Virus record (IMG/VR): IMGVR_UViG_3300042465_001934
Coordinates: 1-43,227 of that record
Length of the DNA: 43,227 nucleotides
Origin: a virus
Direction: 5' to 3' (one strand)
This document shows, piece after piece, positions 3,313 to 24,698 of the stretch. How positions within the stretch are numbered: the first letter of the stretch is position 1; each line of letters opens with the position of its first letter. The translations under genes were made by a program, and so were the position numbers. The notes below the pieces were generated by a model that searched no databases, was not told the DNA's origin, and was given only the letters and a program-made list of their open reading frames with translations.

Positions 3313-3924
3313 ATGTACACTACACTGCAAGTCGTGAACGACTGCTTAGCCACTATGGGTGAGGCACCCCTCAACTCCCTTAGCGAATCCCACGGCTTCA
3401 AAGGTTCCGCACTAAGGTGCCTGCAACAGGTCGATAGACAAACGCAATCGCGCGGGTGGTGGTACAACACTGAGGAAATGACGCTAACCCCCAGCCCTGA
3501 TGACAAGGCCATCTACCTGCCCGGTGATGTGGCTCGGGTTAACTTCGGCTTCATTAGCGTTACCGGCCATAACTGCGGGCAGTGGCAAGGGCGCTATGTC
3601 CAGCGTGGTCGTAGGCTTTACGATGTGACCAAAGGCACTTATGAGATTGAGGAAATCCTCACCGCTCAACTGATACGCCTTGTGCCTTTCCCCGACCTCC
3701 CCCTCTGTGTTGCTGAGCTTGTTGCCGCTGAGGCTGTGCTTAAGTTCCAGTCAGATTATGATGGCGATAACAACCGCAGGGTTGAGCTAGTGTCAGCCGT
3801 TAAAGATGCCCGTGTATGGGCTAACTCAGAAGACATCCGGCAGCGTCGGGTTAACCTCTACAACATCAACACACGCCTACAGCGCATCAAGCGCGTAACC
3901 TCACGGGCGCGGTTCTCTTACTAA
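3313..3924 (+). CDS. Tail tubular protein A (adaptor/gatekeeper)
   Basis: 203 residues, similar in size to T7 gp11. It forms the ring that joins the portal to the nozzle and closes the head after packaging. The ATG at 3313 follows GGAG at 3303-3306, just after the terminator; an in-frame TTG at 3301 gives four more residues but has no ribosome site. The middle of the protein has recognisable tail-tubular-A features, including the LPGDVARV stretch. It is followed by the large tail tubular B gene. Confidence 0.92.
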   Translation: MYTTLQVVNDCLATMGEAPLNSLSESHGFKGSALRCLQQVDRQTQSRGWWYNTEEMTLTPSPDDKAIYLPGDVARVNFGFISVTGHNCGQWQGRYVQRGRRLYDVTKGTYEIEEILTAQLIRLVPFPDLPLCVAELVAAEAVLKFQSDYDGDNNRRVELVSAVKDARVWANSEDIRQRRVNLYNINTRLQRIKRVTSRARFSY

Positions 3925-3932
3925 GGATTACT

Positions 3933-6458
3933 ATGAGAGCTTCTGGAAGTTATGAGAGCCTCATTCGCGGGGTGTCTCAACAAGTGCCCCATGATCGGGC
4001 CATCGGTCAGCACACTGCGCAAGTGAACATGCTATCTGATCCGGTCAACGGTCTTACGCGTAGACATGGCTCACAACTGGTAGCGGAGAAGAAGTTAACC
4101 TCCTTATCTGTTGCACAGTTTGCGGCGTATGCCCAAGACACTAACAGTTGGCGCACGCTGGAGGGCAGCTATAACCTTAACGACTACGTGGTGTTGTACC
4201 GCACCGCTGCACGCCCAGCCGGAGCCAGCCCCCTGCCATTAATGATCGTCTACTGCAAAACGACAAAGACTTTCCTGACCTTAACACGTAATGCCTCCGA
4301 CCCTTACCTCGATCAACTTGAGGAGGGGGGTATTAGCGCGGCCTGCTTTATCGGACGTTACCTTTTCATGGCAGGTAACACAATCACAAGTCAGGGTAGC
4401 GTTACACCTAAATGGAACACTGCTGACAACATGGCAAAGTCCGTTGTTTGGATCAGGGGAGGTGCCTATGGGCGCACATTCACTGCCGTTCTGACTAAGA
4501 CGGACGGCTCGCTGGTTAACTACTCAGCATCGACACCTCCTCAAACATACCCCGGCACATTAGACACGTCTGATATACTGACCAGCGACCCTGACTACAC
4601 TAAAAAAGTTAATGATAGAGTCAACGCGTATAACTCTGCTGTTAACTCATGGATAACCAGTAGTACTTACCAAGTACAGCCCGCGAACATGGCGGCCCTC
4701 GTTGCCCCCGAGCTAGTCGCCTTAGGTATATCTGCTACGGCGATGGGTAGTCACATTGTACTATCAGGCGTGCGTTCGATAAGCGTCAACGACGGCGGTG
4801 ACGGTAGCCTGCTGCGTAGTGTGGGCGATGAGGTGGACAGTGTAGACAAACTCAGCCCTTTACATTATGTAGGTAAGGTAGTAAAGGTAAGGGCACGTAG
4901 CTCTGACCAAGCATTTTACATGCAAGCTATATCAAAGACACCCTCGATAGCCTCAGGGGTGACCGAGGTTACATGGGTAGAGTGCGCAGGGGAAGAGTAT
5001 TCTGTGGATCAGGGACTGTTCTTTGGCACAGTAGACGGGGGCATTACTACCGCCTACCTCGCCAGTTCACCGGCCCTGCTTAATGCTATCTTCCCCTCCG
5101 ACCACCCGCAGTACGCAGTAAGTCAAGCCGGTGATGGATTCAGCGCACCTATTCCTTATGTTGGTAATCGCCGCATTACTTACTTAACGTCTTTTCAAGA
5201 TCGTCTACTCGTAGGTAGCGGGGGTGTAGTCGTGTGTTCTAAAATTGGGGACTACTTAAACTTTTTCCGTAGCACTGTGCTAAGCGTACCGGCAGATGAC
5301 CCATTTGAAATGAAGTCGCAGGGGCCTGATGATGACGTGCTGCGACATAGCGTACTGTATGACCAGAGCCTCGTAATCTTCGGAGACAAGCGGCAGTATG
5401 TCATTAGCGGTAAGGTGGCGCTAAGCCCGACCAATGCCAGCATGCCTGTCATGAGCGCCTATGCTGACGCGGCTATCTGTCCACCCCATGTGGCAGGTGG
5501 TCTAATCTTCTACGCTAAGAATGGGGAGCGCTTTGCTAGCGTCAACGAGATACAGCCGGGTCGCGGGTTGCAGAATAGCCCTGAATCGTTCCCAGCCAGT
5601 AGCCAGATTGATGACTACATGCTAGGTGCAGCCATCGAGCTTACCAGCAACGCTGAGCCTAGTACGTTGATAGTACGCACCACGGGCTCTCGCAACTCCG
5701 TATACACGTTCTTCTACGTAGATCGTCCTGACGGGCGCAAGGTTGATGCGTGGAGTCGCTGGGACTTCGATCCGGCCCTTGGCCTAGTCATTGGTATGAC
5801 GCCTACAACCGAAGGGGTACACCTGTACTACCTGAGGGAAGGTCACGATGGGGTGTACGTTGCGTGCGACCTCTGCCCTATGACGGTAGGTCTGTCTGAT
5901 CGCCCTTACTTGGATAGTCAGCGGCCAGTCGCCACGGTGATCGCAGGTACAGGTAGCGTGCGCGGCACCACATCCGGGCCTTGGATGGCCGCTTATGACT
6001 ACACCGCGGGTGAGCGCCAGTGGCTCGGCAGCACGTTGGCTGACTCGGGCGCGTTGGCCACAACCTATCCCGGGGTGCCGGGTATGGTGATCGGTGCGCC
6101 GCAGGTAGCTTACTTTGAGCCCACTAACCCCTACATGCGGGACGGTAACGGTAGTGCTATATTGTCGGGACGGTTAACCATCACCAGCATGCGTATTGCT
6201 ACGGCTGATAGCGCGGGCTTTAAGGCAGTGGTCGATGTAGCGGGCACTCAGCAAACTATCTCCTTCACAGGCCGGGTAGTGGGGCAGCCCAACGTCATTG
6301 GCGTTGAGCACATAAGCACTAACGAGCACACTGTTCCAATTGGGCGGGAGACTAGGGCGTACAGCCTGAGGCTATCCGCACGCTCATGGCTACCGTTTAC
6401 GGTCACGGCTATCGAGTGGTCGGGTCAATACTTCAATCGCACACAGCGGTTTACTTAG
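3933..6458 (+). CDS. Tail tubular protein B (tail nozzle)
   Basis: 841 residues, the normal size for T7 gp12-like nozzle proteins. Six copies form the tail tip that DNA passes through and to which fibres attach. The N-terminus has the family pattern of a Ser-rich start followed by LIRGVSQQVP and later LTRRHGSQ. An AAGGA site precedes the ATG. Directly downstream of tail tubular A, as in all T7-like phages. Confidence 0.94.
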   Translation: MRASGSYESLIRGVSQQVPHDRAIGQHTAQVNMLSDPVNGLTRRHGSQLVAEKKLTSLSVAQFAAYAQDTNSWRTLEGSYNLNDYVVLYRTAARPAGASPLPLMIVYCKTTKTFLTLTRNASDPYLDQLEEGGISAACFIGRYLFMAGNTITSQGSVTPKWNTADNMAKSVVWIRGGAYGRTFTAVLTKTDGSLVNYSASTPPQTYPGTLDTSDILTSDPDYTKKVNDRVNAYNSAVNSWITSSTYQVQPANMAALVAPELVALGISATAMGSHIVLSGVRSISVNDGGDGSLLRSVGDEVDSVDKLSPLHYVGKVVKVRARSSDQAFYMQAISKTPSIASGVTEVTWVECAGEEYSVDQGLFFGTVDGGITTAYLASSPALLNAIFPSDHPQYAVSQAGDGFSAPIPYVGNRRITYLTSFQDRLLVGSGGVVVCSKIGDYLNFFRSTVLSVPADDPFEMKSQGPDDDVLRHSVLYDQSLVIFGDKRQYVISGKVALSPTNASMPVMSAYADAAICPPHVAGGLIFYAKNGERFASVNEIQPGRGLQNSPESFPASSQIDDYMLGAAIELTSNAEPSTLIVRTTGSRNSVYTFFYVDRPDGRKVDAWSRWDFDPALGLVIGMTPTTEGVHLYYLREGHDGVYVACDLCPMTVGLSDRPYLDSQRPVATVIAGTGSVRGTTSGPWMAAYDYTAGERQWLGSTLADSGALATTYPGVPGMVIGAPQVAYFEPTNPYMRDGNGSAILSGRLTITSMRIATADSAGFKAVVDVAGTQQTISFTGRVVGQPNVIGVEHISTNEHTVPIGRETRAYSLRLSARSWLPFTVTAIEWSGQYFNRTQRFT

Positions 6459-6466
6459 GAGATAAC

Positions 6467-7168
6467 ATGGCAGCAATGCTAGCAATGATGGCCCTACAGG
6501 CCGTGTCGGGTCTATCGGCTGGCTACTCTGCATCGCAGGCTGCGGGTCGGCAGACCTTGATTAACAAGGCCAATGCCGATGCCGCTAACGTGGTACGTGG
6601 TGCGCGTAATGAGCTTGTGGTGGCTAAGGGGCGCGTGGCCCGGGCTAACCAAGCTGAGAACAATCGACGCACCCTGTACCAAGGTGGCCGTGCGGCTGAG
6701 GCTGCGGCTATGAACTATCGCCGTATGAGAGACAGTGCTACCAGTGATGACTTTGAAAGCCAGATCAGGATGGCTGAGCAGGCCGGTGCGGCTATAGCCT
6801 CGCAGGCGCTGGCCGGGGTAGGGGGCTCAGTGGTAGATGTAGTCAACGGTACTACAGCCTTGCGGAATGCCCGCGTCCAGCAGGCTCAGAAAGAGCGCAT
6901 GAAGGCCGCTGACTACGATGCCGGGCAGGTGCAGACTGACATCAAGCGGGCCACTATCCAGAGCCTTGATGATAGCAGTATCATTGATGACCTAGACTAC
7001 AACGTGGACTTGGGGTTAGAGGTACACCGCTCAGGTAACTTGTTCACTGACGTTATAGGAGGACAAGACCCTAGGAACATAGCTAACGTGTTAGGCGGTA
7101 TGAGTAACTTCTCATTCCGTAGTAAAGGCGATACGCCGCTCTCGCTCTATTCTGGGGCCGTGGGTTAA
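6467..7168 (+). CDS. Internal virion protein B (gp14-like)
   Basis: 233 residues. The ATG at 6467 follows TAGGAG, 8 bases after the nozzle gene stop. The N-terminus is hydrophobic and Ala/Met/Gly-rich (about residues 1-25), and a long Ala/Arg/Gln-rich helical stretch follows. T7 gp14 is ejected into the host outer membrane to start the DNA conduit, which fits this membrane-active N-terminus. Gene order (nozzle, gp14, gp15, gp16) supports the call. Confidence 0.88.
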   Translation: MAAMLAMMALQAVSGLSAGYSASQAAGRQTLINKANADAANVVRGARNELVVAKGRVARANQAENNRRTLYQGGRAAEAAAMNYRRMRDSATSDDFESQIRMAEQAGAAIASQALAGVGGSVVDVVNGTTALRNARVQQAQKERMKAADYDAGQVQTDIKRATIQSLDDSSIIDDLDYNVDLGLEVHRSGNLFTDVIGGQDPRNIANVLGGMSNFSFRSKGDTPLSLYSGAVG

Positions 7169-7182
7169 CTTAAGGAGCCGTC

Positions 7183-9552
7183 ATGGCAGAGAATACATTA
7201 GGTGCCCCCACTGAGGGGCTGGGTCAGACGGTGACCTTTTCAGCTAACACACCGGGCGGTACTTCCCAAGCTAGCGCTGGGCGGCAAGTGCAGCAACGCA
7301 CTGAGGTGCAGGGCGGGTTCGGCGGTAACGTCAACCGCGCCATACAGATTCCTGAGAGGGGGCCTGATCCCACCATGCAGGTACTGTTCAAGATGGGCGC
7401 TACCATCCTTGCCCCCGCCATCAAGGCAGAGCAAGAGGCAGGCTTTGTGCGCGGTATGCAGCAAGCTGCGGCAGGGCAGGCGGTTAACGACATCGTAGAG
7501 GAGCAGCCTTGGTACTCCAAAGCCTTTGGCACTACCGATGTGGTAGACGGTGCGCGGGCTTATACCGCCTTCTCCAAGGCCAGCGAGATTAGCACTAGCA
7601 TCCAAGCTGCTATGCCTGAGTTGCGTAAGCTGTCGGGCTCTCAGTTTGCTGAGCATGTGCAGCGACAGATCGCAAGTACTAAGACAGGCGACGAGGCTAC
7701 GGACACGATGGTGTTCCAGCAGGCCATGAAGCAGATGCCTGACCAGATGGCTCAGCAGACTAAGCATAACTATGTTTACAAGCAAGAGCGTATGGTGGAT
7801 GCCCAGCGGCAAGCTATGGGCGCGGCCCTCACTAACGTGGGCGTGGTTACTACTAAGTACCGCATGGCCGCACCCGGGGACGCTTTCCAACCCGCTGTAC
7901 AGAACGAGATTACTGATAGCATTGACGCTGACGGTGCTCGGGTAGGTGCGGTACAGGCGTTCGTTCGCCCTGAGGGTATGGACCCTAAGGTACACAGCCG
8001 TAACGTCACACTGGCGCTAGCTGCTGCTGCCTCTGAGGGTAATCTTGCTGGCGTGTACGCTATGCAGGATGCGGGCATTGTAGATCAGTTGCAAGACGAT
8101 GACAGGGTCCACGTGACCCGTGCCCTAGATGCTGCTGAACGTAAGGCTCGGTTACTGATCGACGCCCCGTTGGCTATCCAAGCCTCGCAGTGGCAGACGC
8201 TGGCTAACGATCCGACTACTGCGCCCGAGACTATCATATCCGGCGCTGCTGCGCTGAATGAACAGTACTCCCGGTTAACGGGTAGCCGTGAGCCGTTGGT
8301 GCCACAGGCTGCTACTGTGCGTGAACTGGTACAGCTTGAGACTTCTCGCATCAACGAGAGGCACCGCGAGGCTGCTAGGCTGACGGCGGCTGCGGCCAAG
8401 GCAGGTACTGCTGACGAGAAGCAAGAGCTACATAACCGCAAGATCGAGCTTGGCGCTGCTGCGTTTAGCACTGGCGCTGACTTTAGCTTCCTCAAGGAAC
8501 CCGAGGCTCAGGAGGCATGGGCCTACAAGCGTAGCGTTAGCACTGACGAGCAGTACTTCTCCGCTATGGCGGCTAGTGCTGAGCGCAGTGGCGGTGTGAA
8601 CAAGGCGTTCAAGGAAACTCTACAGACCGAGATTAACCTAGCCGTTAGTCAGAGTAACCCACAGACCTTGCATGATGTCTACACCAAGCACTACCTCCCG
8701 TTACGTACAGCGGCTAAGGCCCAAGGCACTAAGGTGGCGGCTACTTACTCCGGTGAGTATGCGGCTAAGATGGACGAGTATCATCGCTTCATACAGGCCA
8801 CCGGCCAAGTCTCCGAAGGCGACAAGGTAGTAGGCTTGCTCAAGTTCTCCCAGCCCCGGGCTAAGGTGGATAACAGTAAGGACGCCGCAGAGTTCCAGAA
8901 GGTTGCTGCTCAGAAGGGCGTATGGCAGACGTTAGGTAACTTGTTCGATGACAAGCCCCCGCTTGATGCTGAGCTAGCGCCACAGTTTGTGTCGGAGCTT
9001 ATGCCATACATGGACAACCTACCGTCTTCCTTGTCTACCAAGGACAAGCTGAAAGAGGCCGGTAAGATGGCGGGTATCGAGCAGTACGCCGGTACATACT
9101 GGAAGCGCGGCCTAGATCAGGCCCCTATCGAGCAGGCGCTGGTTAAGCCTGAGCGCAACGGTAAGCCTAACCCTACTCAAATCCAAGTGACTGAGTTGGA
9201 TGCGGCTATCAAGCTGGGGTTCTCACAGGCGCTGACTAAGGCCGGGCTAGTTGACTCTGGAGTGAGCGCATACCGTATGCCTGATGACAATGGTGAGGCT
9301 ATGTTCTACGTGCTGAGTAGCACAGACAAGGGGGAGCCTAACGGTATCCTAATCCGTGGCTCAGAGATTGAGTCAGCTTGGTCTAATAAGAAGCAAGCCG
9401 GTGTGCTAGAGGATATTGCGTACATGGAGAACGCCCTCAAGGCGGGTAGGGGTAGTGGCTCGGGTAGCAAGTTTACCAAGGACGAGGTTAAGGATTATCA
9501 AGATCGCATTAACCGCAAACTCATTGAGATTGGGCAACCGCCTAAATACTAA
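7183..9552 (+). CDS. Internal virion protein C (gp15-like)
   Basis: 789 residues, close to T7 gp15 in size. Strongly Ala/Gln/Glu/Lys-rich and predicted largely helical. In T7 this protein forms the periplasmic part of the ejection conduit with gp16. AAGGAG precedes the ATG. A short Gly/Ser-rich linker lies near the C-terminus (about residues 759-765). Assigned from size, composition and position between gp14-like and gp16-like genes. Confidence 0.87.
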   Translation: MAENTLGAPTEGLGQTVTFSANTPGGTSQASAGRQVQQRTEVQGGFGGNVNRAIQIPERGPDPTMQVLFKMGATILAPAIKAEQEAGFVRGMQQAAAGQAVNDIVEEQPWYSKAFGTTDVVDGARAYTAFSKASEISTSIQAAMPELRKLSGSQFAEHVQRQIASTKTGDEATDTMVFQQAMKQMPDQMAQQTKHNYVYKQERMVDAQRQAMGAALTNVGVVTTKYRMAAPGDAFQPAVQNEITDSIDADGARVGAVQAFVRPEGMDPKVHSRNVTLALAAAASEGNLAGVYAMQDAGIVDQLQDDDRVHVTRALDAAERKARLLIDAPLAIQASQWQTLANDPTTAPETIISGAAALNEQYSRLTGSREPLVPQAATVRELVQLETSRINERHREAARLTAAAAKAGTADEKQELHNRKIELGAAAFSTGADFSFLKEPEAQEAWAYKRSVSTDEQYFSAMAASAERSGGVNKAFKETLQTEINLAVSQSNPQTLHDVYTKHYLPLRTAAKAQGTKVAATYSGEYAAKMDEYHRFIQATGQVSEGDKVVGLLKFSQPRAKVDNSKDAAEFQKVAAQKGVWQTLGNLFDDKPPLDAELAPQFVSELMPYMDNLPSSLSTKDKLKEAGKMAGIEQYAGTYWKRGLDQAPIEQALVKPERNGKPNPTQIQVTELDAAIKLGFSQALTKAGLVDSGVSAYRMPDDNGEAMFYVLSSTDKGEPNGILIRGSEIESAWSNKKQAGVLEDIAYMENALKAGRGSGSGSKFTKDEVKDYQDRINRKLIEIGQPPKY

Positions 9553-14284: not shown

Positions 14285-15085
14285 GTGCCTACACCTACCG
14301 AACAACTTTTATCACGTACTTCGTATGCGGGTGACGGGGTCACTACTGCTTGGAACTTTACGTTTGCAAGCGGCTACATTGATCAAGAGCATGTTAAGGC
14401 TTACGTCACTGATAGCGAAGGGCTCCGCACTGACCTAGTGCTAACCCCAGCCGACTTCATTGGCGAGTTCCAGTTGCGGGTAATCCCTGCTGTGGCCGTT
14501 AGTGACGTGCTGACTATCTACCGAGACACCCCGAAGGATGCGCCCCTTGTTGACTTCCAAGATGGTAGCAACATTACAGAGGCCGCTCTCGACACCTTAG
14601 CCCGACAAGCCGTATTCGTGGCGGCTGAGGTTAGCGACGAGCTGGGTCTAGTCGTAGGCCCAGCCTTGCAGGAAACTGCTCAGCAGGTTGCTGATAACGC
14701 TGCTGCTGCTGCTGCCAGTGCCGTGGCTAGCGCTGCTAGTGCTGTAACTGCGGAAGGTGCGGCTACCGCTGCGGCTGCTGCGGCTGCTGCCGGTGTACTC
14801 CCTGCGGTGCTCGCTGCCGTTGACCCGTTAGTAGCTGCGGCTGACGCTAGCGCCGACGCCGCTGCTGCCAGTGCCACTACTGCCCAAAGCTACATAGCCC
14901 CCGCGCAGAATGCTGCCACATCGGCTGCGGCTAGTGCCTCAGATGCAGAGGATGCTGCGGCTATAGCCCAGTCCATTGCAGGCTCACTAGGCGGGAGCTT
15001 CGGCTTTACCAACACCGCCTACGATTTCGGCTTTGTCACAGACACTGCTACCTACCTTGACTTAGATTGTGGAGCTTTACCATGA
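14285..15085 (+). CDS. Tail fibre protein, T7 gp17-like N-terminal attachment part
   Basis: 266 residues, GTG start after AAGGAGG. Residues 1-150 carry the T7 tail-fibre N-terminal domain pattern (early YxGDGVTxxWxF, then a DFxGEFQLRV-type stretch), which attaches the fibre to the nozzle. Residues 135-225 are an Ala/Ser/Asp-rich repeat, probably a trimeric coiled coil or extended rod, encoded by many GCTGCT repeats. There is no receptor-binding C-terminal domain, so the adhesive part is probably supplied by the next genes, as in phages with split fibres. The stop overlaps the next start (ATGA). Confidence 0.88.
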   Translation: MPTPTEQLLSRTSYAGDGVTTAWNFTFASGYIDQEHVKAYVTDSEGLRTDLVLTPADFIGEFQLRVIPAVAVSDVLTIYRDTPKDAPLVDFQDGSNITEAALDTLARQAVFVAAEVSDELGLVVGPALQETAQQVADNAAAAAASAVASAASAVTAEGAATAAAAAAAAGVLPAVLAAVDPLVAAADASADAAAASATTAQSYIAPAQNAATSAAASASDAEDAAAIAQSIAGSLGGSFGFTNTAYDFGFVTDTATYLDLDCGALP

Positions 15086-15933
15086 CAACTGAATTACGCC
15101 TACGCCGAGGCACTACGGCCCAGACCAACGCCTTCACTGGCGCTGAGGGTGAGATTACCATCAACACTACGACCAAGGGTATCCACGTCCACGACGGCAC
15201 CACCCTCGGGGGTACGCCTATCTCTGGCGCGGCTGGTCTTGCGGCTCACTTGGCCGATCTGGCTAACCCCCATGCTGTGACTAAGGCACAGGTCGGGCTG
15301 AGTAACGTGGATAATGTGTCATCTGCCACACTCTACAACCGTGCTAACCATACAGGCACACAGCTAGTAGCCACTATCAGCGACTTCGCCACGGGCGTGC
15401 TGAATACTGTACTAACGGGCCTGAGCCTTGCCACAAGTACAGCGGTCACGGCTGCTGATACGCTTCTGGTAGCCCTTGGTAAGCTACAGGCACAGGTCAC
15501 TCTCCGTGCTTTGTTGACCGCCAATACCTTTAGCGGTAACCAGACATTGGCCGGGAACAAGCTGATCGAGGCTAACCTTGAGAAGGTCACTGAGGTGGCT
15601 GCTGCTCAGACAATCTCGGGCGGTGTACTTAACCTAGATTTGGCTAACGGTCTGTCTAAGGTGGCGTTGAACGCTAACATCACCTCCATTACAGTAAGCA
15701 ACAATGTCGCCTCTACCACAAAGGTGCAGGCGCACACTGTCGAGTTTACTGCTGATGGTACTGCCCGTACTATCACATGGCCTGCCGGTAACGGTACGTC
15801 TACGCTGCTGTTTAAGTGGCCTGGTGGCACAGCCCCTACGCTAACTAGCACTAATACTAAGCGCGACGTGTTCATGTTCAAGAGCGTTGATACGTTCCTA
15901 TGGGATGCGTTTATTGTTGGGCAGAATCTGTAA
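15082..15933 (+). CDS. Tail fibre/adhesin with tropism-determinant-like N-terminus
   Basis: 283 residues. The ATG at 15082 overlaps the previous stop. The N-terminal 50 residues match the repeat seen at the start of many phage fibres (RLRRGTTAQ, GEITINT, IHVHDG), the Mtd_N-like fold. The middle (60-180) is collagen-like fibre shaft sequence with NPHAVTKAQVGL and NHTGTQ repeats typical of tail fibres. The C-terminal 110 residues look beta-rich. It probably forms the distal receptor-binding part on the 14285 fibre. The TAATG overlap with the next gene suggests coupled expression. Confidence 0.8.
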   Translation: MTTELRLRRGTTAQTNAFTGAEGEITINTTTKGIHVHDGTTLGGTPISGAAGLAAHLADLANPHAVTKAQVGLSNVDNVSSATLYNRANHTGTQLVATISDFATGVLNTVLTGLSLATSTAVTAADTLLVALGKLQAQVTLRALLTANTFSGNQTLAGNKLIEANLEKVTEVAAAQTISGGVLNLDLANGLSKVALNANITSITVSNNVASTTKVQAHTVEFTADGTARTITWPAGNGTSTLLFKWPGGTAPTLTSTNTKRDVFMFKSVDTFLWDAFIVGQNL

Positions 15934-16442: not shown

Positions 16443-17297
16443 ATGACTAAATTACTTATACCCATCATCATGCTTATCACCTTCTTCTTATGCGGTTGCG
16501 GGGGCGGTGGGCCGGGGGGCGCGGCCCCCGTGCCTCGGCTAAAAACTGCCTTCATTAACCCGACCGACGCTATCCTACCTGTTGGCGATAGCTACGACTA
16601 CCGCATATCTGTGACGCTGGACCCTAACCCCGTAACCTCAGTAGCCTACCAAGCTACTCAGTCAGGCGAACTTATCGCATGGCCCGGGCGTACCCGTGAA
16701 AACGGCTTCGGTGGATTCAGCACCTTCCTTGACGAAGTTGTGAAGTACCCTGCGTTTAAGTACGTGTACCTGTATGACGAGCTTGGGCTCGGTACTGGTA
16801 GACCGCAGGACGAGCTACACTTGGAAGACCAGACGGCTGTACTAGCCGCTAGTGTACAGGTGCGCGAGCGGGGCCTTAAGTCGGTAGTAATCTACTTTCC
16901 CAATGCTGTGCTTAACCCTGCATTTACTCTAGGCGTTGCTAACGGCCTTGATGTTATTGGGCTTGACATTTACCCTAACATCATGCCAACATTTAGTGTA
17001 CCTAACCTGTACCCGGGTAACCCCTATAAGAACTACTTGGCCGCTATGGTAACTAAGCTGCGCGGTATGGGCTTTACTGGGGAGATATGGTACGTGTACC
17101 AAGCCTTTGACATTGTAGGAAATGATCCGGTGTGGTTTAATGCTGAGCTTGTAAAGCAACGTGCAGCTATAGACGATGCCATTGAGCTTGGTATAACAGG
17201 CGTCATCCCGTTTGGCCTGTACACCGGTGCTGACGAGTTAGCGCGTGAACCTTGGCTAATACCCCTAGAAGACACACAGCCTCTGGTGATCCCGTGA
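16443..17297 (+). CDS. Predicted lipoprotein with TIM-barrel/glycoside-hydrolase-like sequence
   Basis: 284 residues. The N-terminus has Lys at position 3, a hydrophobic stretch (5-16) and a lipobox-like LCGC, followed by a Gly-rich linker; this predicts export and lipid anchoring. The remainder has alternating hydrophobic strands and helices, including KYVYLYDELG, GLKSVVIYFP, LDVIGLDIYPN and GEIWYVYQAF. Acidic residues end several strands, as in TIM-barrel glycoside hydrolases. I do not recognise the family. A lipoprotein among fibre genes could act after infection on the cell surface, for example by altering a receptor polysaccharide or blocking superinfection; that is inference. Codon use looks like its phage neighbours. 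Confidence 0.55.
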   Translation: MTKLLIPIIMLITFFLCGCGGGGPGGAAPVPRLKTAFINPTDAILPVGDSYDYRISVTLDPNPVTSVAYQATQSGELIAWPGRTRENGFGGFSTFLDEVVKYPAFKYVYLYDELGLGTGRPQDELHLEDQTAVLAASVQVRERGLKSVVIYFPNAVLNPAFTLGVANGLDVIGLDIYPNIMPTFSVPNLYPGNPYKNYLAAMVTKLRGMGFTGEIWYVYQAFDIVGNDPVWFNAELVKQRAAIDDAIELGITGVIPFGLYTGADELAREPWLIPLEDTQPLVIP

Positions 17298-19927: not shown

Positions 19928-20431
19928 ATGCGTGTATCTACTCTCCCCTCTCCTGGCCTGTTGTCTATGGGCATCAAGCTGCGCACTGAGGCCGCTAAGG
20001 CTATCTCTGCTGTCGAAATCTCTGCCGGTCGCGGTCATGCAGGTGCTGCTAAGTCCCCGCATGCCTTCCAGCTTAACGCCTTCTTCACGGCTTGTGCTGC
20101 TGCGGTCTCTACCTTCACTGAGACTACAGTGCCCGTGATCGCCTCCCGTAGCATCGGCGCTGCGAACAAGAAGCGTATCGTACTGGCCTACGGCGAGGGC
20201 TTGGACCCCGCCTCTGTGCCTGCTGTCACAGACTTCGCTATCACCACACAGGCCAAGGCCGTGACCAAGGTGACTATTGACGGCCCCTTCGTCTATCTGG
20301 ACGTGGCTACGGACTTCGTGGCTGGTGCCGTTAACGTGGCATACACTGGCGGTACTAACAAGCTGAAAGACGTATCGGGTAACCTCGCTGCTGACTTCAC
20401 TGCCACTGCCGTCACTAACGGTATCGTCTAA
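19928..20431 (+). CDS. Virion-associated protein with a SWM-type repeat domain
   Basis: 167 residues with AAGGA before the ATG. Residues 70-165 have the pattern of SWM-type (putative flagellar-system-associated) repeats: IVLAYGEGLDP, DFAIT, VYLDVATDFV, NVAYTGG, LKDVSGNLAA. These are beta-sandwich surface domains found in secreted and phage-decorating proteins. The N-terminal 65 residues are not recognised and may anchor it to the virion. It lies between the terminase and lysis genes. A capsid decoration or tail-associated role is inferred. The stop overlaps the endolysin start (TAATG). Confidence 0.55.
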   Translation: MRVSTLPSPGLLSMGIKLRTEAAKAISAVEISAGRGHAGAAKSPHAFQLNAFFTACAAAVSTFTETTVPVIASRSIGAANKKRIVLAYGEGLDPASVPAVTDFAITTQAKAVTKVTIDGPFVYLDVATDFVAGAVNVAYTGGTNKLKDVSGNLAADFTATAVTNGIV

Positions 20432-20940
20432 TGACGTTCCCCGACTGGATCAAAGGTCGGGTGGCTGTAGCCCTGCTCTCGCTGTCTATCGGCGGGGCAG
20501 GTGCTATAGTGGCCCATGAGGGTATGCGTCCCGTAGCGTACAAAGACCCTGTCGGCATTGTCACTATCTGTGCTGGTCATACAAAGACCGCTAAGATGGG
20601 GCAGGTGCTGAGCGCTGAGCAATGCGCTAAGCTACTGCAACAGGATGTCCGTGATGCCGAGGCTGCTATCAAGCGCTTAACCACAACCAAGCTGACACAG
20701 CGGCAGTATGATGCGCTTGTGTCTTTCGTATTCAACGTAGGTGAGTCTGCTTATGCTAAGAGCACTATGCTTCGTCATATTAACTCAGGTCGCTGCCATG
20801 CTGCGGCTGACGAGTTCAAGCGCTGGAACATGGCAAGCGGTAGAGTACTCCCCGGCCTGACTAAGCGGCGCGAGGCTGAGGCTATCGAATTTAGAACGGG
20901 GTGCGCCCCAAAAGGAAATCAAAATGTGGGCTCCATCTAA
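20431..20940 (+). CDS. SAR endolysin, GH24 lysozyme
   Basis: 169 residues. The catalytic triad of T4-type lysozymes is present with exact spacing: Glu30, Asp39 and Thr45 (E-x8-D-x5-T). Residues 10-28 are a weakly hydrophobic Gly/Ala/Ser/Leu-rich segment typical of signal-anchor-release endolysins, which the host Sec system exports and holds inactive in the inner membrane until the potential collapses. T7 itself uses an amidase; a SAR lysozyme is the phiKMV-type solution. Cys47 lies just after the catalytic Thr and could regulate activity through disulphides. No holin lies next to it; the holin is at 17595. Confidence 0.9.
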   Translation: MTFPDWIKGRVAVALLSLSIGGAGAIVAHEGMRPVAYKDPVGIVTICAGHTKTAKMGQVLSAEQCAKLLQQDVRDAEAAIKRLTTTKLTQRQYDALVSFVFNVGESAYAKSTMLRHINSGRCHAAADEFKRWNMASGRVLPGLTKRREAEAIEFRTGCAPKGNQNVGSI

Positions 20941-21169
20941 CTTGGGCGTAGGGCTTAAAGCCTTCGCTGTAACTCCTCACGACTCAACTAGTTTCACGTC
21001 CCGTGCCCGTACCCTGTACGTTGGCACTACAGGCAATGTCACTATTGTTAACGCTGATGGTACTACCTGCCTGTTCAGCAACGTACCTGCCGGGGCCTTT
21101 ATACCCGCCGAGTGTATTAGGGTTAATGCTACAGGGACTACTGCTAGCAACATCGTAGGGCTTGTGTAA
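20924..21169 (+). CDS. Spike base-like protein (RCAP_Rcc01079-type)
   Basis: 81 residues; AAGGA precedes the ATG, which overlaps the endolysin end by 17 bases. It matches, from memory, the short beta-rich phage family with a pattern of AVTPHDST, then TLYVGTTGNV, then FSNVPAGAFIP, then NATGTTASNIVGL, annotated as spike base proteins in gene transfer agents and many phages. It is followed at once (shared A of TAATG) by a tailspike gene, which fits a base on which the spike is mounted. Confidence 0.65.
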   Translation: MWAPSNLGVGLKAFAVTPHDSTSFTSRARTLYVGTTGNVTIVNADGTTCLFSNVPAGAFIPAECIRVNATGTTASNIVGLV

Positions 21170-23004
21170 TGTTAGGCCTCGGCTTACGCTTATCCGGCAT
21201 GTTAGCACCTCGGCACGGGATTGCCGAGGCAATAGAAACATTCCTGCTCAACCTATCCAGCCCCGTCAATGCGACCATTCTGGACGGTCAAGGCGTTGGC
21301 ACGATTGAGCAAAACCCGATCATTGCCAGCGTCACCGTTCACCGCACCACGGGCAAGCTGCCATTGGCGGTTTACTTTGATGCCAGCAATACAACAGCAT
21401 CCACAGTATCTAACGCAGAACATGAACTCTATTACCTCTGGGACTTTGGCGACAGCGTAGGCGAGACATGGGCTTACGGAGTCAACACTTCGCAAAACAG
21501 GAATGTTGCCTACGGCCACCAAGCGACCCACGTTTATAAAACCGCTGGCACAAAAACATGGACGTGCGCCATCATTGATGGCTCTGGAAACACTCGCGTT
21601 GCTACAGGCAATATCACGGTGTCTGCCTGGGCTGAAGCAGACACGACATATATCGACAATGGCGCTGTGCCAGTCGCAGGCGTCAACGGTGTTGGTTCTG
21701 GCGCAACGTACTACAACGAAACCACGTGGGCTGGTGTTGTATCCCGCATGGCGGAGGGTAAGCGGGTGCGCCTGAAGAAGGGCGCATCGTGGTCGGTGAC
21801 GGCATCAACCGCGATGCCTAACGGATGTCAGGTGGACGCCTACGGAACAGGCTCTGCGCCCTTGCTAACATCGACAGCCGACAACCAATGCCCTTTCCAG
21901 ATCAGCAATGGCAAGGACGATAACCGTGTGTGGGGCTTAAATCATGCTGGCCCGGGCGCATCGGTTGCAGAGTCTGGAACGGTTTTGCTGACTGGTACAC
22001 CGTCTACCAATGTGCTTGTATTGGAATGCGAAAGCAACGCAACGACCAGCTTGGTGAATGGCAGCGCCGATTACCTTTTCCTCGTTGGAAACAACGCGCA
22101 CGACTTCGGCGCAACATCCTCTAACGGCGCGACCATTGGGGTGTATGCAACCCACTGCCACCGTGTCGCGTTGTTGGGCAACCGATTCGATCTGACGCCT
22201 TCGCATTGTGTGCGATTCGCGGGAGTGAACGGGCTCATTGCAGCCAATAACACGTTCACCCGCGTCGGTAACACCCGGCACGCAATTACCGTGCGCGGAT
22301 TCAGCGACACAGTGTTGTCGAACTGGAATGGCTTGTGGACCGAGAAGGTGGTTATTTGTGACAACTACATTGACGACGAGGCGGGCACTGGGCAGTGGCT
22401 TATACACGTAGCGCCACAAAACACAGGGGACGCCTCACGCATCAGAAACGTCATCATTGAACGCAACCATGTGAAGGCGTCTAGCGTATGCATTGCGCAT
22501 GAGGTTAGCGAAAACTGCACGATCCGAAACAACATACTGAAGACAACGGGCGGGCGGTACGCAATCCATGTGATGGCGATAAACACCGTTGGCGCTCCAC
22601 CACCATCAAGCTGCTACGTGTACAACAACACGTTCTACAAGCCAAACATTGCGGTACAAAACGGATTTTCGCCACTGGCCATGTTTGAATCAACGGTGTC
22701 AGGCGTTGTATTCCAAAACAATCTGGCCTATTCCCCCGCAGACACGCTCGACGGCTCTGGCGGCGGATCAGCGCCAACGATGTACTACGCCGCAAATGGC
22801 GCATCGGTAACGTCATCGTCTGGAAACAGCAGCAATGCACAGCTCAAGTCAACCCAGCCGTGGGCCAGCGCAACGCCATCTAATCCCGTGGACTACACCC
22901 CCAACAGTTACGGTGTAAACGGCGGTGTATCTGTACCAGTGCAAAAAGACTTTTTCAATGCAGCCATCACCGGCACCCGTGAGATTGGAGCGATACAGGT
23001 ATGA
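21169..23004 (+). CDS. Tailspike: half Calx-beta, PKD domain and right-handed beta-helix
   Basis: 611 residues. Residues about 22-48 (ETFLLNLSSPVNATI and DGQGVGTI) are the C-terminal half of a Calx-beta domain whose N-terminal half is absent here. Residues about 50-150 are a PKD-like domain (YYLWDFGDS, ATHVYKTAGTKTW). Residues 165-560 have repeated short strands with Asn ladders (LLGNRFDL, LIAANNTF, VIIERNHV, TIRNNIL, YVYNNTF, VFQNNLAY), which indicate a pectate-lyase-like parallel beta-helix, typical of polysaccharide-cutting spikes. Codon choice differs from the rest of the phage (more GCA/GCG, ACG, GAA, fewer CTA and GCT), suggesting recent import. The stop overlaps the next start (ATGA). 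Confidence 0.75.
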   Translation: MLGLGLRLSGMLAPRHGIAEAIETFLLNLSSPVNATILDGQGVGTIEQNPIIASVTVHRTTGKLPLAVYFDASNTTASTVSNAEHELYYLWDFGDSVGETWAYGVNTSQNRNVAYGHQATHVYKTAGTKTWTCAIIDGSGNTRVATGNITVSAWAEADTTYIDNGAVPVAGVNGVGSGATYYNETTWAGVVSRMAEGKRVRLKKGASWSVTASTAMPNGCQVDAYGTGSAPLLTSTADNQCPFQISNGKDDNRVWGLNHAGPGASVAESGTVLLTGTPSTNVLVLECESNATTSLVNGSADYLFLVGNNAHDFGATSSNGATIGVYATHCHRVALLGNRFDLTPSHCVRFAGVNGLIAANNTFTRVGNTRHAITVRGFSDTVLSNWNGLWTEKVVICDNYIDDEAGTGQWLIHVAPQNTGDASRIRNVIIERNHVKASSVCIAHEVSENCTIRNNILKTTGGRYAIHVMAINTVGAPPPSSCYVYNNTFYKPNIAVQNGFSPLAMFESTVSGVVFQNNLAYSPADTLDGSGGGSAPTMYYAANGASVTSSSGNSSNAQLKSTQPWASATPSNPVDYTPNSYGVNGGVSVPVQKDFFNAAITGTREIGAIQV

Positions 23005-23825
23005 CAGTAAAAGTATGCGGTGGCAACACCGGGAACGACTACACAGGCGTTGCTGACGCGCAGATTAACGAGTCTGCAGGGCAGCAAAACATCAACTCCG
23101 GTAGCTCGACCTCCATATATTGGGGGTCGCCATCTGCCAGCAACCGCAAGCACATGCTTATGCGGTTTGATGGTCTTGCTGCGCTGACTGCTGCTTTTGG
23201 CTCTGTGACGGTCACTGATGCGGTTCTGTCAATACGAAGCCTTGACGCAATGGGGTCAACCACTGCGCTTAGGCTGTGTAAGCTGCTGGTCCCATTTGTG
23301 CAGGCGCAGGCCACATGGTTAAACAGAGCAACTGCAACGCCTTGGACTACGGCTGGAGGCTTCGGCGCATCTGATTGCGACACAGCAGGGTTTGCCACAG
23401 GCACCGTACCCACAGCGACAGGGTACTTTTCGGTTGGTGGTCTTGCTACACAGGTTCAACGATGGCTGGATGGGACAGACCCGAACTATGGGTTTCTTAT
23501 TTCTGCTGACCCGAACACGCTCTACAACGGAATCACACCAAGGTTCGCCACAACAGAAGGCACTTCGGGTAATCGTCCATATCTCACGGTCACGTTTACC
23601 ACTGTGCCTAAGATCAGCGTGGGTGATGTAACGGTATCCAACACTTCAGGGACCGCAACCTTTGTCGTGTCGTTAGATACCTCGTCTGCGTCTTCGATAA
23701 CTGTCAACTACGCAACGGCAGATGACACGGCAACGGCTGGAGTGGACTACACCTCAACCTCTGGGACGCTGACCTTCGCGCCGGGCGAGACTAGCAAAAA
23801 CGTAGTGGTGCCAATATTACCCTAA
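23001..23825 (+). CDS. DNRLRE (CBM96-like) protein ending in half a Calx-beta domain
   Basis: 274 residues, coupled by ATGA overlap to the spike gene. Residues 1-200 match the DNRLRE/CBM96 pattern of extracellular carbohydrate-binding domains (SIYWGSPSASNRKHMLMRFD, AVLSIRSL, ATWLNRATATPWTTAGG, VQRWLDG, NYGFLI, RPYLTVTF). Residues 203-274 are the first half of a Calx-beta domain (TATFVVSLD, TVNYATADDTATAG, TSGTLTFAPGETS, VVVPIL) and then the protein stops. The missing half is found at the start of the preceding gene. No signal peptide. Probably a spike partner or secondary adhesin. Confidence 0.7.
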   Translation: MTVKVCGGNTGNDYTGVADAQINESAGQQNINSGSSTSIYWGSPSASNRKHMLMRFDGLAALTAAFGSVTVTDAVLSIRSLDAMGSTTALRLCKLLVPFVQAQATWLNRATATPWTTAGGFGASDCDTAGFATGTVPTATGYFSVGGLATQVQRWLDGTDPNYGFLISADPNTLYNGITPRFATTEGTSGNRPYLTVTFTTVPKISVGDVTVSNTSGTATFVVSLDTSSASSITVNYATADDTATAGVDYTSTSGTLTFAPGETSKNVVVPILP

Positions 23826-23832
23826 GGAGTAT

Positions 23833-24153
23833 ATGAAGTATGTCATCTTAACCTTAACTCTTGCTCTGGCCCTCACGGGCTGGGGCCTTTGGGCACAGGT
23901 TCACACAAATGCCGAGCTATCGGCCAAACTGGAGGGTACCGAGGAGACCCTTTCCCGGCTCTCAGAGCAACGCGAACAGGACCGGAAGGTGCTGGTAGCA
24001 CGGGCACAGAAAATCGCCTCAAAACAGCGGGAATTGGCCCGGGCTCAGGAAGCCCTCGCAAAGGCCCTACAAGCGAATAATGACTGGAGCAATACCAATG
24101 TACCAACTGATGTTCAAAAGGCGCTCACAGGCCCTTCTGGTGCGTCTAACTGA
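23833..24153 (+). CDS. Rz: Rz-like i-spanin
   Basis: 106 residues with AAGGAG before the ATG. One N-terminal membrane segment (2-21) is followed by a long Glu/Gln/Arg/Ala coiled coil (about 27-82), the topology of inner-membrane spanins. It pairs with the Rz1 lipoprotein encoded in the +1-type overlapping frame and fuses inner and outer membranes at the last step of lysis. It is the penultimate gene before the long non-coding region. Confidence 0.88.
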   Translation: MKYVILTLTLALALTGWGLWAQVHTNAELSAKLEGTEETLSRLSEQREQDRKVLVARAQKIASKQRELARAQEALAKALQANNDWSNTNVPTDVQKALTGPSGASN

Positions 24154-24415
24154 TAGTCTGAGGGCTGTGAAATACACCTTCTGGCTGATGCTGCTGGGGC
24201 TGGGTGCTATCCTTGGCGGGTTAGGTGGCTGTAAGGCCACCCTCCCCATTAAGGTGCTGCCTCCCGTAGAGCTAATACAGGACTGTCCTGAGAGTGCTAT
24301 CGATGTGACTACGAATGGGGGCTTAGCTAAAGCTGTTCCTATACTTAGAAGCGACCTAGCTAAATGTAACATAGACAAGGCTGCGCTTAGGGCGTGGGCT
24401 GGGGACGTGCAGTAG
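24080..24415 (+). CDS. Rz1: Rz1-like o-spanin lipoprotein
   Basis: Up to 111 residues from the ATG at 24080; ATGs at 24098 and 24110 are alternatives and I cannot choose between them. It overlaps the Rz end by 74 bases in another frame, as Rz1 genes usually do. A hydrophobic segment ends in a lipobox LGGC (Cys about residue 51). The mature part starts KATLPIKVLPPVE, and such Pro-containing short periplasmic parts are normal for Rz1. It is the last late gene. The charged stretch before the signal segment is long for a signal peptide, which favours a later start. Confidence 0.85.
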   Translation: MTGAIPMYQLMFKRRSQALLVRLTDSLRAVKYTFWLMLLGLGAILGGLGGCKATLPIKVLPPVELIQDCPESAIDVTTNGGLAKAVPILRSDLAKCNIDKAALRAWAGDVQ

Positions 24416-24698
24416 CCTACGGCTTAAATTTGGTTCGCTATCGTGAGGGGGCACCTCCAATAGACGCAGGCGCGTACTCCCCCATGGGCATGTGCCTACA
24501 CGCACGCGGGCGCTAACACACGCGCGACTAAAGGGCTATGCATGCGCACGCGTAGCCCACAGTTAGCCTTATCCATAGCTTGATGCTTAGCTCTTACGGG
24601 CTATGCTGATAGCTGGATACGGGCGGGGGGCATCTGTCTCATTGCTTCGCTTAGCTACTGCTAGCCTGTCCCAATGCTTCGCTAGCTAGGACTTAGCT

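Follow-up and report, generated by a model that had tools for sequence, protein, structure and literature searches.

A Calx-beta domain divided in permuted order between a phage spike and the protein encoded directly behind it

Introduction

It is common for a phage to have several receptor-binding proteins, and the joining of unrelated ones on a tail is an open question of practical interest. In chaperone-usher pili, subunits are joined by donor-strand complementation and exchange, in which an incomplete beta-sandwich is completed by one or more strands of another subunit to give a tight joint. Strand complementation between subunits, a known principle, also occurs in TasA fibres (PMC9674648). 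On phage tails, the branched spikes of Ackermannviridae use a modular tailspike anchor/adaptor system (PMC11414711), with short, swappable N-terminal anchors and a joint for further receptor-binding proteins. In another system, an accessory Ig-like protein has been proposed as a separate ORF just downstream of the tail spike (PMC12309495). Calx-beta domains (PF03160) are found in NCX1 (CBD1, 2DPK), integrin beta-4 (3FQ4) and bacterial surface proteins, and proteins with tandem Calx-beta domains are common in bacteria.

Here we describe a phage locus at which one Calx-beta domain lies on two polypeptides, cut at the E-F loop and in permuted gene order. The pieces belong to known families: both resemble described Calx-beta domains in sequence, and the N half also resembles them in predicted fold. 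The joint that we propose would be analogous to donor-strand complementation, but two C-terminal strands rather than one would be supplied, and the pairing would be heterotypic, between the products of two adjacent phage genes; we claim no homology. As in Ackermannviridae-type systems, a short swappable N-terminal anchor would be combined with a joint for further receptor-binding proteins, but here that joint would be a split Calx-beta domain. As in the Ig-like case, the gene immediately downstream of the spike encodes a beta-sandwich accessory protein; in that case the separate ORF holds an entire Ig-like domain, whereas here one domain is split over both proteins. Our search of the open-access literature turned up no Calx-beta domain described from a phage spike and none described as naturally split.

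Results and discussion

Genes at the locus

The window, meaning the whole stretch of DNA that was analyzed, is a virus record of 43,227 bases. It belongs to a T7-like podovirus, as judged from its head-tail connector, Gp10A-like capsid, T7 tail-fibre N-terminal domain, family A DNA polymerase and single-subunit RNA polymerase. Three overlapping genes lie between the endolysin (20431-20940) and Rz (23833), encoding an 81-aa protein, a spike, and a third protein that we call the partner. The features of this region are as follows.

20889..23877, + strand: cassette of about 3.0 kb between endolysin and Rz (blastn against L085)
20924..21169, + strand: small tail-fibre-associated protein, 81 aa (PHROG 12296, E=1e-19)
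21169..23004, + strand: spike, 611 aa, with putative anchor, Calx-beta C half, PKD domain and predicted right-handed beta-helix
21169..21219, + strand: N-terminal anchor-like peptide of the spike, MLGLGLRLSGMLAPRHG, 17 residues
21220..21306, + strand: Calx-beta C half, spike residues 18-46 (strands F and G, assigned by homology)
23001..23004, + strand: ATGA overlap of spike stop and partner start (read from the sequence)
23001..23825, + strand: partner (P0002), 274 aa, with DNRLRE/CBM96-like domain and Calx-beta N half
23055..23594, + strand: DNRLRE domain (carbohydrate-binding-module-like), partner residues 19-198 (NCBIfam NF033679)
23613..23822, + strand: Calx-beta N half (strands A-E), partner residues 205-274, ending ...VVVPILP-stop

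The stop codon of the 81-aa protein, which has homologs in 95 phage records, overlaps the spike start in the sequence TAATG. Judging from the ATGA overlap, translation of spike and partner is likely coupled.

Two complementary halves of one domain

The spike begins with the anchor-like peptide MLGLGLRLSGMLAPRHG, followed by IAEAIETFLLNLSSPVNATILDGQGVGTI (residues 18-46), a PKD domain and a predicted right-handed beta-helix. Whole-domain Pfam searches of the spike, including its N terminus alone, reported no Calx-beta domain, because the stretch is too short for them; a half-domain profile resolves it. We built an HMM of the C half (36 positions) from 474 other Calx-beta domains, with the loci under study excluded, and searched 7,891 viral ORFs with it, taking the N-terminal 70 residues of each. 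The window spike ranked first among the 7,891 N termini, with 41.1 bits (E=5.8e-11) versus 14.9 bits for the best of 20,000 shuffles. On the full Calx-beta model, its C half covers hmm positions 65-95.

The partner presents the other end of the domain. Its residues 205-273 match positions 10-79 of the 119 in PF03160 (E=6e-15; 55.8 bits against a Pfam cut-off of 27), and its stop codon follows one residue past this match, right after strand E. The protein ends at position 61 of the 97 in the Calx-beta model, so the remaining strands, which we take to be F and G from general knowledge of the fold, are absent from its own chain. The DNRLRE domain in front scores 61.2 bits with NF033679 (cut-off 34).

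Joined in domain order, the halves score 102.8 bits versus 73.2 and 26.7 separately, which is about the sum of the parts, with the C half adding about 30 bits. Against bacterial Calx-beta domains, the joined sequence lacks a single residue, at the junction, and the alignment is otherwise continuous, with 55-57% identity; it also aligns with NCX1 CBD1 across the junction. The missing loop amounts to only about one residue because the spike piece retains most of the E-F loop (GIAEAI). A preliminary description of this DNA had read the start of the spike gene as the C-terminal half of a Calx-beta domain and the end of the following gene as the N-terminal half, the two making a nearly complete domain without a short loop. 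The half-domain profile and PF03160 bear out both identifications, and the gap is shorter than had been claimed. The Calx-beta profile that it proposed for both proteins recognizes the partner; the spike is negative with the whole-domain Pfam model and positive with the C-half profile.

Structure predictions differed between the two pieces. In the AlphaFold2 model of the partner, the C-terminal end forms five strands (residues 205-207, 217-225, 233-238, 254-259 and 265-272), and pLDDT across this block is 75-93. Foldseek placed this N half on NCX1 CBD1 (2dpk) at 1.5 A over 58 columns with 38% identity, and on the integrin beta-4 Calx-beta domain (3fq4) at 1.4 A over 57-58 columns, in each case covering about half of the target. 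The N half is thus predicted to fold without the C half. In the spike model (pTM 0.79), the PKD domain and helix are well formed, and Foldseek matched them to the PKD domain of ColG and to the beta-helices of GH28 and the HK620 tailspike. No strands are predicted for spike residues 1-48, where pLDDT is very low; the underlying alignment had six rows, few of which cover this end. Such modeled disorder would fit, if weakly, a segment whose folding requires the partner, and it may reflect no more than the shallow alignment.

The same split in a divergent phage

The preliminary description had pointed to related phages as the place to look for the same break point, and it was found in L294, a 24.6-kb contig whose terminase, portal and gene order differ from those of the window phage. 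The L294 spike and partner are 34% and 36% identical to those of the window, and the permutation, the cut position and the ATGA overlap are all alike. The L294 spike starts MGLNKTLLASIIASMGGGSSPPPSS-KTFSVTLSGITGATPSSVSATVTI, and its N terminus ranks second of all N termini with the C-half HMM (E=2.1e-5). The L294 partner (P0007) is likewise a DNRLRE protein (NF033679, 41.8 bits, cut-off 34) and ends ...TADITATAGVDYT...TITIPILPG-stop; its Calx-beta end (E=5.5e-9) stops at model position 61, as in the window. CBM96 (PF24517) passes its cut-off in this partner only, at 26.5 bits versus 26.

The two spikes have unrelated anchors, and BLAST homology between the spikes begins at residue 23, within the Calx-beta piece. 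Conservation of the halves is similar to that of the remaining sequence: identity between window and L294 is 38.6% in the N half (CalxN) versus 35.7% in the remainder of the partner, and 33.3% in the C half (CalxC) versus 36.5% in the remainder of the spike. The split may have arisen once, because the two loci are homologs.

The cases are few and all come from metagenomic contigs, so a chimeric contig or frame error could in principle have made the split. We regard such an assembly artefact as extremely improbable, since two independently assembled contigs have the same gene order and overlap, and every cut falls at a proper start or stop, with neighboring genes overlapping or closely spaced.

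Mobility of the segment and a possible origin

Two loci, L084 and L085, represent nearly the same phage as the window (terminase 99%). Neither has a gene between endolysin and Rz, and both have another gene behind Rz1. In blastn of the window against L085, the flanks are 91% and 88.5% identical with no match between them, and a cassette of about 3.0 kb in the window replaces 79 bp of L085. The segment is a mobile cassette, because a near-identical phage exists without it. The stretch downstream of the terminase varies across 80 related loci; in some, other large genes separate endolysin from Rz.

At a neighboring position, L085 has a 300-aa gene behind Rz1 (8272-9174) that is absent from the window (24399-24434), and the window has the spike cassette before Rz. 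Between window and L085, accessory genes are exchanged at two sites of the lysis region.

Cassette mobility may explain how the split originated. The preliminary description had suggested that the segment was cut out of a protein with repeated Calx-beta domains, both ends falling at the same place in the repeat. The mobile cassette and the abundance of tandem Calx-beta proteins in bacteria make this a possible origin, and the window halves retain 57% identity to domains of bacteria. If the halves were nothing more than inert leftovers of such an excision, erosion or loss would be expected, whereas L294 keeps both, with the same permuted cut, at 34-36% identity and about as well conserved as the remainder. 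Moreover, the starts and stops of both proteins are in register with the same loop, and spikes without one half also lack the other. As a full account, a recombination scar therefore appears unlikely; excision from a repeat protein is still a possible shared origin, compatible with a present function.

Searches outside the viral contigs placed the halves in context. With tblastn, the spike, the partner, and the L294 and L336 proteins found no full-length relative in isolate phages. Plasmids yielded Calx-beta proteins and one distant PKD/helix protein, none covering most of the spike or partner query. Bacterial genome contigs matched the partner in essentially the Calx-beta part only. Spike homologs in about 800 bacterial genomes were few and chromosomal-looking, and no split was seen among them. 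Among isolates, Erwinia phage Fifi067 (L003) has a nearly full Calx-beta domain on a GH48 protein. This protein starts with the domain, which lacks its first strand and is otherwise nearly complete, and the adjacent structural-region genes at 3793-8409 are annotated cellulase and GH48.

Occurrence of the halves in other relatives

In L336, a homologous spike is followed by a different protein of 421 aa with a different N-terminal part. Two Calx-beta copies lie in this protein: a complete one and, behind it, one that breaks off after strand E, at model position 60 (iE 0.82). The second copy is 51% identical to the first over 88 columns, and the full copy displays the part that is missing. The N terminus of the L336 spike (AFTVTLTALSNASGSVTTQAFI) resembles the C half at a level that is not significant with the C-half HMM (E=0.27). 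Just upstream of this spike, at L336 7561-7722, a 53-aa ORF resembles the anchor and hairpin-like start of the spike (ISFTGALTALSKAVGSDITRIYIN); from its sequence, it is perhaps a stand-alone strand donor.

This locus bears on whether each half might be stabilized elsewhere, the N half by another protein or by strand swapping in a homo-oligomer and the C-half hairpin within a spike trimer. Trimers are the usual state of spikes with this fold, and L336 combines an N-half end on another partner with a weak spike-side half. Against this, the halves co-occur in adjacent, overlapping genes, and the spike is the only window ORF of at least 100 aa among the C-half matches listed. We think it quite unlikely that the halves are stabilized separately.

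Three spike homologs lack the C half. In L034, the next gene overlaps by ATGA, and a search of it for Calx-beta found none; in L338, the next gene is portal-like and there is no N half; in L339, the spike is cut by the contig end. Across 29 viral Calx-beta loci, an ORF ends inside the domain at iE<1e-5 in three (window, L294 and L165), and C-half-like N termini at E<0.01 occur in the same three. Random overlap of the two sets would be expected about once in 3,650, a figure to be taken as supportive and as no formal test, the sample being small and partly gathered by N-half patterns.

We considered L165 (7914-9719) as a further permuted case. Its N half is carried by an ORF of 109 aa that begins with a short peptide of its own. 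A small lipoprotein ORF starts inside the end of this first piece, and behind it comes a beta-helix-like ORF whose start resembles the C half (E=0.0016, C-half HMM). The split is in natural order, so L165 is only a weaker parallel. We also set aside an ORF of L412 that both starts and ends inside a Calx-beta domain; it comes from a bacterial MAG and is perhaps a frame error.

A proposed shared-domain joint

The other suggestion of the preliminary description was that the two proteins complete the domain between them and so lock together. Conservation, co-occurrence, the L336 arrangement and the AlphaFold-disordered C half favor completion of one domain, and we infer the lock. Taken together, we consider it probable that spike and accessory protein are held together by one shared Calx-beta domain. 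This reading is favored because each half is significant and the two complement each other to within one residue, because window and L294 keep the same permuted split despite their divergence, and because spikes without the C half (L034, L338) have no N half behind them. It is weakened because the C half of L336 is not significant and the order in L165 is natural. We infer binding between the proteins, its stoichiometry, carbohydrate binding and a location on the tail.

With the gene overlap, spike and partner would be made close together. The F-G hairpin of the spike would stay unfolded until it docks beside strand C of the partner, completing the beta-sandwich. The resulting hybrid domain would sit at the base of the spike and tether the carbohydrate-binding-like protein there. 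With the anchor peptide attached at the cut loop, three arms would leave the assembled domain and make it a branch point: the anchor from the E-F loop, the accessory domain from strand A, and the spike from strand G. The arrangement would move between phages as a cassette and be refitted with a local anchor peptide. We tentatively suggest that the split Calx-beta domain could serve as a three-way junction, an exchangeable, non-covalent coupler for branching receptor-binding proteins. The heads of the partners do vary, with a DNRLRE protein in the window and L294 and another protein in L336.

If true, this would be a natural modular coupler resembling engineered split-domain tags, with a one-loop split conserved in divergent phages. 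A shared domain predicts binding between two defined peptides, and its signature can be searched for in metagenomes: an ORF ending after strand E that adjoins an ORF starting with strands F-G.

Anchor peptides and neighboring tail genes

The spike's N-terminal peptide is a putative tail anchor, based on similar M-L-G-x-G starts in other phages, where they stand directly behind the homolog of the 81-aa protein. In the window itself, two ORFs accompany the tail fibre. A 284-aa lipoprotein-like ORF (MTKLLIPIIMLITFFLCGCGGGG...) at 16443-17297 lies in the tail-fibre region and has no PHROG or Pfam match at E<=0.001, and an ORF at 15067-15933 that adjoins the T7-type tail fibre gene matches Mtd_N, the Major tropism determinant N-terminal domain (E=5e-13). 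In many unrelated phages, L010, L032, L060, L081, L082 and L100 among them, a PHROG 12296 homolog is immediately followed by a gene with a short M-L-G-x-G-L-like start whose remainder is wholly different. From these sequence patterns, the peptide appears to be a minimal motif, widespread among phages, for anchoring receptor-binding proteins to the tail.
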